From NCBI GenBank assembly GCA_012729635.1, contig JAAYCT010000011.1, forward strand, positions 1 through 45,337: 45,337 bases of DNA, in the 5' to 3' direction. The DNA is from Clostridiaceae bacterium. Its GTDB lineage: Bacteria; Bacillota; Clostridia; Saccharofermentanales; Saccharofermentanaceae. The translations under genes were made by a program, and so were the position numbers. Shown here in pieces: positions 2,301-5,806 of the stretch. Each line of letters begins with the position of its first letter. Within the stretch, counting starts at the first letter, position 1. Below the pieces are notes generated by a model. The model made no database searches and had not been told where the DNA came from. It worked only from the letters and a program-made list of their open reading frames with translations.

Positions 2301-3125
2301 ATGAGTAAAATGAATTTTTCCAATTCACCCGGGAAAATCGTCCCGATTCCCGAGCACGAGGCGCTGAGGGAGGAGCTTGAGAAACTCCGCACGGAACTTT
2401 CCATGCTCGTACTCGAGCGCGATGAGCTTCTTTTTGTCGAATGCAAAAACATCGAGATGGCCTACATGCTCTCCGTCGGCGGACTGGAGTACAAGGCCTA
2501 TGAAATCGAGTGCGCGGTCTTGCGCCTGAAGCGCAAGGCGGAGATGATCCAAGCCAAGAAGAACCGGCAGGAGAAGGTGATCCTTTCTGAGATCGAGACG
2601 GCGCTGGATAAGGAGTTCGCCGATTACCGGGCTAAGCTTGATGAGAAGATCCGGAAGATGAACGACGCACTGGAGCGAAGCAAAGGGCAAATACTGACGG
2701 ATGAAGAGAACGCGGAACTGAAAAAACTCTACCGCGCGATCGTGAAGGAGCTGCACCCCGATCTGCACCCGGATCTGAGCGAAGCGAAAAAGCGGCTTTT
2801 CCAGAGTGCAGTCGATGCTTACGAATTCGGAGATTTGGAAGGGCTTCGTATCATCGCCGGGATGGTCGGCGGGCCGGTGACGCAGGAAGAAAATAAGGAC
2901 ATGACGGGGCAACTCATTAAGGAAAAAGAACGACTCACCAAGCTGATCCAAACGGTGAATAAACGCATTGCGTCGATCAAGTCGGAATACCCGTATATCT
3001 TGAAACCCCTTGTTGAAGATCCGGACAAAATCGAGGAGAAAAAGGCCGAGCTGCAAGCATACACTCAGGAGCTCAAAGAAGTGCTGGCCGCATACACATC
3101 GAAGATTGCGGAAATGCTGAGGTGA
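2301..3125 (+). CDS. J-domain-like coiled-coil protein
   Basis: The start at 2301 is supported by AAGGT 7 nt upstream; an in-frame ATG at 2238 lacks this. The 274-residue protein is hydrophilic. Its N-terminal part (residues ~15-130) is a long charged coiled coil, including ELSMLVLERDELLFVECKN. Residues ~140-185 read like helices II-III of a J domain, with LYRAIVKELHPD at ~143-154 and a second HPD directly after. The C-terminal ~60 residues are again heptad-like. J domains stimulate Hsp70 ATPase through HPD, which suggests a client-specific DnaK partner; the client is unknown. It is spaced 4 bp from the HIRAN gene, so the two are surely co-transcribed. A degenerate copy of its N-terminal part lies near 13.6 kb. 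Confidence 0.65.
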   Translation: MSKMNFSNSPGKIVPIPEHEALREELEKLRTELSMLVLERDELLFVECKNIEMAYMLSVGGLEYKAYEIECAVLRLKRKAEMIQAKKNRQEKVILSEIETALDKEFADYRAKLDEKIRKMNDALERSKGQILTDEENAELKKLYRAIVKELHPDLHPDLSEAKKRLFQSAVDAYEFGDLEGLRIIAGMVGGPVTQEENKDMTGQLIKEKERLTKLIQTVNKRIASIKSEYPYILKPLVEDPDKIEEKKAELQAYTQELKEVLAAYTSKIAEMLR

Positions 3126-3129
3126 AAAT

Positions 3130-3528
3130 ATGGGCGATTTGATTAAGGGCGAAAGCGGCGGACTGGTTGGTCTTTTTCACGGGAAGGGCGGCGAGGTTGC
3201 GATCCCTAAGCCGTTTGAGCGGGACATTTTCCTTTTCGATACGCATGTGGCCGGGACAAGCCACGTTGAAGGAATACTGGACCTGGAGCCGCACCTGCAC
3301 GACGACGACCGACTTGATTTTTTTCGAGAGCCCGACAACCCGCATGACCCGAAAGCGATCGTGATCAAGAATGCCGACGGGGTGAAAATCGGCTATGTGC
3401 CCGAGAGGGACAACGCGATTTTCGCGCGCCTTATGGACGCCGGGAAGTTGATTTTCGGAAGAATTACGTCTAAAGAGATTGCGGGGAAGTGGCTCAAGAT
3501 CAAGATTAAGGTTATGCTTAAGGAGTAG
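3130..3528 (+). CDS. HIRAN-domain protein
   Basis: This 132-residue protein is almost entirely a HIRAN domain: the beta strand VAGTSHVEGIL (~40-50), the signature REPDNPHDPKAI (~66-77), then KIGYVPERDNAIFARLMDAG. HIRAN domains bind 3'-OH ends of single-stranded DNA in eukaryotic HLTF, while stand-alone bacterial ones are mostly uncharacterised. GAGGTGAAAAT before the ATG overlaps the stop of the J-domain gene, showing translational coupling. The pairing suggests that the two products act together, perhaps at damaged DNA; that is inference only. Confidence 0.8.
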   Translation: MGDLIKGESGGLVGLFHGKGGEVAIPKPFERDIFLFDTHVAGTSHVEGILDLEPHLHDDDRLDFFREPDNPHDPKAIVIKNADGVKIGYVPERDNAIFARLMDAGKLIFGRITSKEIAGKWLKIKIKVMLKE

Positions 3529-3591
3529 GGAGCGGGTTGCACCTGCTCGATGATAAAAAAGTGCCTCAATCCATCTGTCAGGAGGTTTCCC

Positions 3592-4338
3592 ATGGCGTCA
3601 CACCCGATTTATCAATTCAGAGCTGAGCTCAGTGATTACAGGCCGAAGATTTGGCGGCGGTTTCAGGTAACAGATGATTTTTCGCTTGCGCGACTGGCCT
3701 ATGTTGTCATGGCGATGTTTGAGATGCAGGCGAGTCATCTTTTCGCGGTGGAGGTTTTCAAACGTAAAAATCTGGCGCGCTTTCTGGAGAAGGATTATCC
3801 GAAGGCAGAGGTGTCGAAGGTACTTTCGCGGAATCCGGTGGAAGAGGTCGTGCGATATGAGATCATCGGGGATGATTTCGATTACCCGGGTCATGAGCCG
3901 ACGGATCCGGTCGGTGTGAAGTTGAAGCACGCGGTCGGTCGTGTGGGAGATGAACTTTGTGTGGAGTATGATTTCGGGGACGGGTGGCGGGTCCTTTTGA
4001 CGATTGAGGATGTTTTCGAGGATAAGGATCTTCCGGGAAAAGAACTGCCGCGCGTTCTGGCGGGCGAAGGTTTCGGGATCATCGAGGATTGCGGCGGTCC
4101 GGACGGTCTGAAGCAACTGGCGCGCTCCTTTTCGAGAAAGAAAGGCGTCGAATATCGGGAGAATCGGGAGTGGCTCGGCGTGGATGATCTGGATCTTTCG
4201 GCGTTTGACGTGGAGGATATGAATTTTCGCGTCAAGAAGATCCCGCGCATTTATGCGGATGTCTATGAGCGCGATCTCCCGCCGACAAAGGCTTCGATGG
4301 ATTTACTGTTGAGGAAGTATAAGGATAAAGCGAAGTAG
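3592..4338 (+). CDS. Plasmid pRiA4b ORF-3-like family protein
   Basis: The start at 3592 has AGGAGG at 3580-3585; the in-frame ATG at 3550 has none. The 248-residue protein has the family hallmarks: an N-terminal FRAELSDYRPKIWRRFQV, the LARLAYVVMAMFEM helix with SHLFAVEV, then DFGDGWRVLLTIE and ILAGEGFG-like and EDCGGPDGL segments. Function in this family is unknown; members are common on mobile DNA and near toxin-antitoxin and defence genes. A diverged copy of its first ~100 codons follows the fic gene at 5432-5806. Confidence 0.85.
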   Translation: MASHPIYQFRAELSDYRPKIWRRFQVTDDFSLARLAYVVMAMFEMQASHLFAVEVFKRKNLARFLEKDYPKAEVSKVLSRNPVEEVVRYEIIGDDFDYPGHEPTDPVGVKLKHAVGRVGDELCVEYDFGDGWRVLLTIEDVFEDKDLPGKELPRVLAGEGFGIIEDCGGPDGLKQLARSFSRKKGVEYRENREWLGVDDLDLSAFDVEDMNFRVKKIPRIYADVYERDLPPTKASMDLLLRKYKDKAK

Positions 4339-4486: not shown

Positions 4487-5404
4487 ATGCGGGGAGTGAT
4501 TCTGATCAGTAAAATATCCATTCGTTTTTTTGATGATAAAGAAGTGCGTGCTGTTTGGGACGATGAAAGATCCAAATGGTGGTTTTCTGCGTTGGACATT
4601 ATCGGTGTTTTACGAGACGAGGACAACTATGCGAAAAACAGGAACTATTGGAAGTATTTAAAAGCGAAACTTATAAAAGAAAACAACGAGTTGGTTAGTG
4701 TGACTAACCAACTCAAACTGACAGCTTCCGACGGGAAGAAATATCGGACCGACACATTTGATTATGACGGAGTCATCGAACTTGCGAAAAACTTTCCAAG
4801 CAAACAGGCAAATCGCTTTATCGAATGGTTCACCTATAGCGATGAAACGATTGACGGGAAGAGCAAATCAAAGGCATATGCTCTTTTCGACAGTTCCTTG
4901 CTGAATACGATAGAGATCGGTACGGTCAAAGGCTTAAAGCAGATTCACGGCTATTTGTTCGGAGGGCTTTATGATTTTGCGGGACAAATCAGAACGCTTA
5001 ATGTTGCAAAGAGTGGTTTTCAATTTGCTTTGGCACGTTTTTTGCCGGAAACGCTGAAAAAAATTGAAGAAATGCCCGCGAGCACTTTTGATGAAATTGC
5101 AGATAAGTATGTTGAGATGAACGTAGCCCACCCTTTTATGGAAGGCAACGGCAGGAGTGCGCGTATTTGGCTTGACCTGATTCTGAAAAGAAATCTGAAA
5201 CTCTGTGTGGACTGGAGCAAAATCGACAAAAAGGCTTATCTCGACGCGATGAAAAAGAGCGTTTCGGATTCCTCGCAAATTAAGGTGCTTTTACAAAACG
5301 CCTTGACCGATAAAATAAACGACCGTGAAATGTTTATGAAAGGCGTGGATTACTCCTACTATTACGAACAGGAAAATGAAATAACTGAAGGGAAAAGTGA
5401 ATAA
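4487..5404 (+). CDS. fic: Bro-N/Fic fusion protein, probable protein adenylyltransferase
   Basis: The 305-residue protein combines two domains. Residues ~10-115 resemble the Bro-N (BRO/ANT-type DNA-binding) domain of phage proteins: VRAVWDDERSKWWFSALDII, a NYWKYLKAKL helix and FIEWFTY. Residues ~125-300 form a Fic domain with the active-site loop HPFMEGNGRSAR at 215-226, matching HxFx(D/E)GNGRxxR, and a flap-like GLYDFAGQIRTLN. Fic enzymes usually transfer AMP to Ser, Thr or Tyr of a target. I see no (S/T)xxxE(G/N) inhibitory helix in the protein and no separate FicA-like antitoxin beside it. No good ribosome binding site precedes ATG 4487; GTG 4496 is an alternative. Confidence 0.85.
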   Translation: MRGVILISKISIRFFDDKEVRAVWDDERSKWWFSALDIIGVLRDEDNYAKNRNYWKYLKAKLIKENNELVSVTNQLKLTASDGKKYRTDTFDYDGVIELAKNFPSKQANRFIEWFTYSDETIDGKSKSKAYALFDSSLLNTIEIGTVKGLKQIHGYLFGGLYDFAGQIRTLNVAKSGFQFALARFLPETLKKIEEMPASTFDEIADKYVEMNVAHPFMEGNGRSARIWLDLILKRNLKLCVDWSKIDKKAYLDAMKKSVSDSSQIKVLLQNALTDKINDREMFMKGVDYSYYYEQENEITEGKSE

Positions 5405-5431: not shown

Positions 5432-5806
5432 ATGAGAAGGTTCCCCACGGCGTCGCATCCGATTTTTGAGTTTATGGCTGAACTCAGTGATTACAGGCCG
5501 AAGATTTGGCGACGGTTTCATGTGAGCAGTGATATTTCGCTGGTACGACTGGCCTATAGTGTGATGGCGATGTTTGAGATGGAGGCGAGTCATCTTTTTG
5601 CGGTGGAGGTTTTCGAGCGTAAAAACCTGACGCGCTTTCCGGAGAAGGATTATCCGAAGGCGGAGGTGTCGAAGGTGCTCTCGCGGAATCCGGTGGAAGA
5701 GGTCGTACGATATGAAATCATCGGTGATGATTACGATTACCCGGGCGTGATTATTAATCCGTTCCCGTGGAGACGGCGCAGAAATTGTCATTCTTCTAAG
5801 ATGTAG
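5432..5806 (+). pseudogene. Truncated pRiA4b ORF-3-like paralogue
   Basis: From 5439 to ~5744 the sequence parallels 3583-3888; about 85 of 100 residues agree between the two encoded proteins. The position of the functional ATG is ACG here (CCCACGGCG against CCCATGGCG), and the AGGAGG has decayed. After DYPG the similarity stops, and ~20 unrelated codons lead to a stop. The C-terminal 60 percent of the family fold is missing. The divergence argues against a very recent duplication. Confidence 0.8.

Follow-up and report, generated by a model that had tools for sequence, protein, structure and literature searches.

The window, that is, the whole stretch of DNA analyzed (45,337 nucleotides), carries two closely spaced genes on the forward strand. 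Gene 1 (2301..3125) encodes a helical-hairpin protein of 274 amino acids with an internal J-domain core, resembling class C J-domain proteins, as judged from Pfam DnaJ, alignments and AlphaFold2 modelling. Gene 2 (3130..3528) encodes a stand-alone HIRAN-domain protein of 132 amino acids, assigned by Pfam HIRAN and by profile and fold matches to PDB structures. Reading of the open reading frames places the ATG start codon of gene 1 at 2301 and its TGA stop codon at 3123-3125, while gene 2 begins with an ATG at 3130, leaving a spacing of 4 bp. The approximate ribosome-binding site of gene 2, located on the same strand at about 3115..3120 (CTGAGGTGAAAATATG), has its AGGTGA at 3120-3125, where it runs into the gene 1 stop codon. 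The coordinates confirm both the 4-bp gap and this overlap, which had been reported in a preliminary description of the sequence together with two neighbors that are also present, AbiE upstream (597-2032) and Fic downstream (4487-5404). From this arrangement, translational coupling of genes 1 and 2 is likely. An alternative, longer open reading frame for gene 1 starts at 2238 and would add 21 residues that have no counterpart in homologues. Tight spacing is common to the family: the median distance between the J and HIRAN genes is 3 bp, 34 of 38 loci have a gap of 31 bp or less, and overlaps are common.

The match of the gene 1 product to Pfam DnaJ (PF00226) has an E-value of 2.6e-5 and a score of 24.7 bits, just below the cut-off of 27.8. 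The same model matches 16 of 20 gene 1 homologues at E ≤ 1e-3, with a best value of 3.5e-7. In the AlphaFold2 model (mean pLDDT 86.5), a long N-terminal helix and a hairpin are followed by J-like helices around an HPD motif and by a C-terminal hairpin. The N-terminal helix and hairpin (residues ~16-127, 2346..2681; predicted helices 17-88, 95-105 and 107-127) contain the best-conserved stretch of the protein among the 20 homologues (residues 38-106), in which D41, Y55, G60 and N88 are invariant, and may serve as a docking surface. The J-domain core (residues ~133-189, 2697..2867) is assigned by Pfam DnaJ, which covers residues 133-175, and by AlphaFold2; it comprises helix II, the HPD loop, helix III and an extra helix, with predicted helices at 134-151, 161-175 and 179-189. 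Located between the first two of these helices, the HPD tripeptide (H152-P153-D154, 2754..2762) is the predicted contact site for DnaK. It belongs to the only nine invariant columns of an alignment of 20 proteins (A3) in which identity goes down to 22%. The protein ends in a helical hairpin (residues ~201-274, 2901..3122; predicted helices 201-227, 232-239 and 241-273).

At the sequence level, the order of helix II, HPD loop and helix III and the invariance of the HPD agree with the earlier proposal of a J domain. Fold searches with the whole model returned generic helical bundles and, among the matches listed, no J domains, such searches being weak for an embedded region of 55 residues. The doubled HPD that had also been pointed out is indeed present in the window (HPDLHPD), but the second copy varies among homologues, where it is replaced (HPDLNTN, HPDINPA and others), and we consider it incidental rather than part of a doubled J motif. 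Matches of the J protein to PADLOC ZorB/LmuB and to PHROG Mu Gam (E between 0.0036 and 0.64) involve coiled-coil stretches only and were attributed to chance. In many genomes the family profile of gene 1 additionally finds DnaJ-sized proteins of ~380-400 amino acids, in which it matches the J region only; a clear score gap separates these from the full-length relatives in the genomes searched.

Gene 2 matches Pfam HIRAN (PF08797) with an E-value of 5e-20 and 71.5 bits, against a cut-off of 24.7, and profile searches of the PDB recovered lp_0118 (1.9e-12) and the HIRAN domain of human HLTF (5.6e-6). Its fold resembles the same two structures, the query model being of moderate confidence (mean pLDDT 68). 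In HLTF, Y72 and Y93 flank a dinucleotide pocket (PMC4666394), and the N90A-N91A substitution abolishes both 3'-end function and Cas9 removal (PMC11237066). The corresponding pocket residues of gene 2 (3262..3348) were compared across 38 homologues. N70 and D73, equivalent to N91 and D94 of HLTF, are kept in 38/38 homologues, and position 45, equivalent to Y72, is H, Y or F in 37/38, the alignment near Y72 being ambiguous. The equivalent of Y93 is mostly aromatic or His. That of N90, on the other hand, is mostly Asp and R71 is not kept, so the affinity of gene 2 for DNA could differ from that of HLTF. Because N70 and D73 are invariant and the HLTF pocket is known to matter for 3' ends, binding of DNA ends by the gene 2 product is plausible. 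HIRAN-like OB folds can also look like the RNA-binding protein SmpB (PMC11090510). The PADLOC model PDC-M03B matches gene 2 in the HIRAN part only; going by PMC8262856, this model appears to be HipN-like.

The J and HIRAN genes form a genuine, conserved two-gene unit, found at 39 distinct linked loci in Clostridia, related Bacillota and Leptolinea (Chloroflexota). In a first scan of public genomes, the HIRAN gene lay immediately 3' of the J gene in 13/13 relatives, except that it followed one gene later at one locus (L012). The pair was likewise intact in 6/6 further genomes of the phylum and in 3/3 contigs from a viral collection, two of which are near-identical. Full-length gene 1 members occur in 29 of 391 genomes of the window's class. 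Those bearing the HPD occur in 22 genomes, all at E ≤ 7e-42, with HIRAN adjacent in 21 and the remaining one (G755) at a contig edge. There, the HPD-intact J gene stops 250 bp short of the contig end and the remaining sequence contains no HIRAN gene; a divergent HIRAN gene lies ~130 bp from, and facing, the end of another contig, with which the first shares no overlap. Conversely, all 21 HIRAN relatives found at E ≤ 5e-31 in the 391 genomes adjoin a J gene, and weaker matches belong to other architectures, such as fusions of 641-667 residues. Linkage is thus well in excess of chance: co-occurrence across genomes gives a Fisher p of about 7e-34, a figure that ignores phylogeny, and the protein trees of J and HIRAN agree (mirror-tree r = 0.92 for 38 pairs, Mantel p = 0.001). 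Whether the two families co-occur had been named as a check on the preliminary description, and the answer is that they do so nearly completely. Synonymous sites are saturated, making dN/dS uninformative for the pair. One genome (Clostridiales UBA8153) carries the pair twice (L003 and L014), one copy having a separate ADP-ribosylglycohydrolase gene upstream. At two loci, HIRAN forms the C terminus of proteins of 614-621 amino acids (L077, reverse complement 316-2160; L078, 5124-6989); both have a helical N terminus of ~500 residues, for which the L077 protein shows no other Pfam match.

Conservation of the HPD follows the presence of HIRAN. The motif is kept in 39/39 HIRAN-linked copies of gene 1, while in 7/7 distant full-length relatives without HIRAN it reads HPE (six species, all from a single genus) or HPQ (a further genome). 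No recognizable HIRAN gene was found across the whole genomes of these seven relatives, which form two separate branches in the tree. The association between HPD and HIRAN has a Fisher p of 1.5e-7, which is overstated, as six of the seven relatives lacking HPD come from one genus. Replacement of the HPD aspartate (D to N) abolished stimulation of Hsp70 in every system tested (PMC8215388). Since the HPD has decayed in all seven HIRAN-less relatives, J activity seems to be required jointly with HIRAN; on a simple reading, J activity appears to matter only together with HIRAN. The six HPE copies of one genus (L104-L109) all occupy the same place, immediately after the gene of an ABC exporter; these degenerate relatives might have been domesticated for another task.

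No constant additional gene was found around the pair, the flanking genes varying across the loci examined. Restriction genes occur nearby at several loci, namely McrBC (L062), a LlaJI-like system (L081), type I restriction-modification (L008 and L079) and type III restriction-modification together with Fic (L005). AbiE is found near the pair only in the window and in L012, where AbiEii is broken and carries stops. Combined, AbiEii and N6-methyltransferase lay near the pair 3 times, where about 0.27 occurrences would be expected (Poisson p = 0.003), for families that were partly chosen post hoc. At roughly half of the loci examined, however, the neighbors are housekeeping or metabolic genes. 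Some pairs thus adjoin restriction or AbiE genes and many adjoin ordinary ones, and we regard clustering with defense genes as suggestive.

In the window, AbiE and Fic each look like a separate insertion bracketed by partial duplications of genes unrelated to them. Both were rejected as parts of the system: AbiE recurs at a single other locus, with the broken AbiEii, and the two modules have these duplications on their flanks. The AbiE module lies between 87-bp direct repeats that are 93% identical (141-227 and 2074-2160) and both resemble the 3' end of one gene, a third copy (91%) being present at G000:C8:1485-1571; this suggests that AbiE was acquired through an insertion event in which a gene end became duplicated. 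Fic is flanked likewise by 300-bp repeats of 87% identity (3580-3879 and 5435-5734), each representing the 5' portion of a PRiA4_ORF3 gene. The Fic protein (4487-5404) has an N-terminal Bro-N domain and matches PADLOC PDC-S04 (1e-161) as well as an NmFic-type adenylyltransferase.

The J protein itself is subject to fusion. An ADP-ribosylglycohydrolase-DUF6508 moiety is fused to its N terminus at two loci (L002 and L004), the C-terminal part of this moiety is seen at a partial locus (L011), and an unfused ADP-ribosylglycohydrolase gene is adjacent at L014. The J proteins of L008, L062, L081 and L083 have other N-terminal extensions; that of L008 looks like the retained tail of the same fusion, and the other three are unrelated. 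Being confined to four loci, ADP-ribosylglycohydrolase was discarded as a constant third gene. In one Tissierellia-like sublineage, an extra conserved gene of about 155-205 amino acids without Pfam match follows HIRAN or, in L012, separates the pair (L010:9212-9829, L012:8779-9321, L013:9210-9680 and, by eye, L120:8554-9165).

The copy in Leptolinea (Chloroflexota) is 62% identical to that of the window and nests among Clostridia, beside Syntrophomonas. In the window's own family, the version carried by two members is far more distant, and a full-length copy is absent from eight members sampled. To judge from these sequences, the pair moves between lineages. At one locus (L116 in G404), the pair lies behind excisionase, mobilization and replication genes identified by eye, apparently on an integrative element. 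No J homologue was found in isolate phages and plasmids.

We propose that both genes encode a single two-component machine, in which a HIRAN protein delivers a J-domain co-chaperone to DNA, and assign this reading a probability of about 0.45. Both proteins are co-produced from their coupled genes, as far as sequence and synteny show. The OB-like pocket of HIRAN, going by its fold and the residues equivalent to N91 and D94, would then grip a free 3' end or short single-stranded DNA, while the helical hairpin of the J protein, in view of the strict co-inheritance, may bind the HIRAN protein or another protein on that DNA. The invariant HPD loop would fire ATP hydrolysis by ordinary DnaK, so that the nucleoprotein complex is pulled apart and stuck or foreign proteins are cleared from DNA ends or stalled forks. 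Possible settings are DNA damage, attack by restriction enzymes or phages, and maintenance of mobile elements. The logic would be that of HLTF, with Hsp70 in place of the SWI2/SNF2 motor. The data establish gene order, domain identities, co-inheritance, the invariance of the HPD and of the central HIRAN pocket residues, and HPD loss in the absence of HIRAN. Complex formation between the J and HIRAN proteins, DNA binding, DnaK stimulation and the biological role are what we infer, and clearance of proteins from DNA ends, already put forward in the preliminary description, is the mechanism that we favor. Each half of the mechanism has a precedent, because DnaK and DnaJ dismantle both dimers of RepA and the O-P-DnaB complex of phage lambda (review, PMC8215388) and, in human HLTF, HIRAN finds the 3' end and so enables removal of Cas9 from broken DNA ends (PMC11237066). 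More tentatively, HIRAN may mark 3' ends or stalled forks at which its dedicated J partner makes DnaK strip proteins, the pair having spread horizontally and taken up plug-in domains such as ADP-ribosylglycohydrolase. As to its purpose, defense, repair and mobile-element maintenance carry comparable weight.

The pair could alternatively act in anti-phage defense, HIRAN detecting cut DNA or intermediates of phage replication while the J protein passes a client to DnaK, with growth arrest brought about by the variable N-terminal domain or a neighbor (ADP-ribosylglycohydrolase, AAA ATPase or unknown domains). Such a function would fit the attachment of variable N-terminal extensions and fusions to a constant J-HIRAN core, the McrBC, LlaJI-like, type I and III restriction-modification and AbiE neighbors, and the excess of AbiEii and N6-methyltransferase, with its partly post hoc choice of families. 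It also has parallels: for HipL/HipN, HIRAN has been put forward as a sensor of phage DNA ends (PMC8262856), and bNACHT25 senses phages by way of the host's DnaJ (PMC12169576). Nevertheless, the ordinary neighbors at roughly half of the loci, the lack of a constant effector gene among them and the absence of the pair from the isolate phages and plasmids searched make this explanation rather unlikely, and PADLOC has no model for the J protein.

A chromosomal accessory factor for DNA repair or replication restart, without any role in defense and patchily distributed because it is dispensable, appears equally doubtful. HIRAN is also tied to fork remodelling in Rad5, which would be in keeping with a repair function. 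The same link has been made for HLTF (PMC4666394), housekeeping genes adjoin the pair at many loci, and genes for Y-family polymerases lie near it in L079 and, by sequence inspection only, in L119. A repair factor, however, would sit uneasily with the patchy distribution and cross-phylum transfer of the pair, with the apparent integrative element at L116, which was read from sequence only, and with the variable fused domains. Finally, the J-like region might be a structural relic that does not engage Hsp70, leaving the pair as a scaffold that binds DNA or RNA. While the sub-threshold J score in the window and the loss of the HPD in distant family members are compatible with a relic, the HPD stands among the nine invariant columns of A3, is present in every linked copy and has been lost exactly where HIRAN is absent, making this explanation highly improbable.

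J-domain proteins set where Hsp70 acts, and to our knowledge no bacterial J-domain protein with a DNA-directed partner has been established. Stand-alone bacterial HIRAN domains, in turn, have been described as uncharacterized (PMC11090510). Strict co-inheritance with a J protein whose motif decays in the absence of HIRAN supplies a concrete partner for bacterial HIRAN proteins. If the proposed machine exists, it would tie chaperones to DNA-end processing or defense in bacteria and represent a bacterial counterpart of HLTF, with a chaperone in place of the SNF2 motor. No description of the pair was found in the literature searched, the founding HIRAN paper (Iyer 2006) and subscription papers lying outside that scope. 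The obligate combination of J and HIRAN, but neither domain itself, is thus undescribed in the literature searched, in agreement with the earlier suggestion of a possible undescribed two-gene system.

Several known systems share parts of this design. Class C J-domain proteins of the DnaJ/Hsp40 family include specialized co-chaperones such as CbpA, DjlA and HscB. Like them, the gene 1 product has an embedded J domain with an invariant HPD; it differs in that this domain is set within a long helical hairpin, in that neither a G/F region nor substrate-binding beta domains were seen and in that gene 1 has an obligate HIRAN-gene partner. Gene 2 is similar in sequence, fold and the N91/D94 pocket residues to the HIRAN domains of HLTF/Rad5 and to the stand-alone lp_0118 (PDB 3k2y), but in contrast to HLTF/Rad5 it is not fused to a SWI2/SNF2 motor, does not keep R71 and N90 of HLTF and is partnered by a J protein. 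The HipIN/HipL toxin-antitoxin systems (PMC8262856; PADLOC PDC-M03B) are likewise small bacterial operons with HIRAN. The J-HIRAN pair, however, comprises neither a HipA kinase nor a HipS-like domain, its partner being a J-domain protein, and in the window none of the neighboring or partner genes matched a HipA-type kinase. In CoCoNuT and other type IV restriction systems that contain Hsp70 (PMC11090510), Hsp70 elements occur with coiled coils and HIRAN/SmpB-like OB folds in a single predicted defense context; whereas these encode their own Hsp70 and McrB/McrC, the J-HIRAN pair encodes neither and should borrow the DnaK of the cell. The proposed logic is that of human HLTF removing Cas9 (PMC11237066), in which HIRAN finds the 3' end and an ATP-driven machine removes the protein, except that the motor would here be DnaK, recruited in trans.
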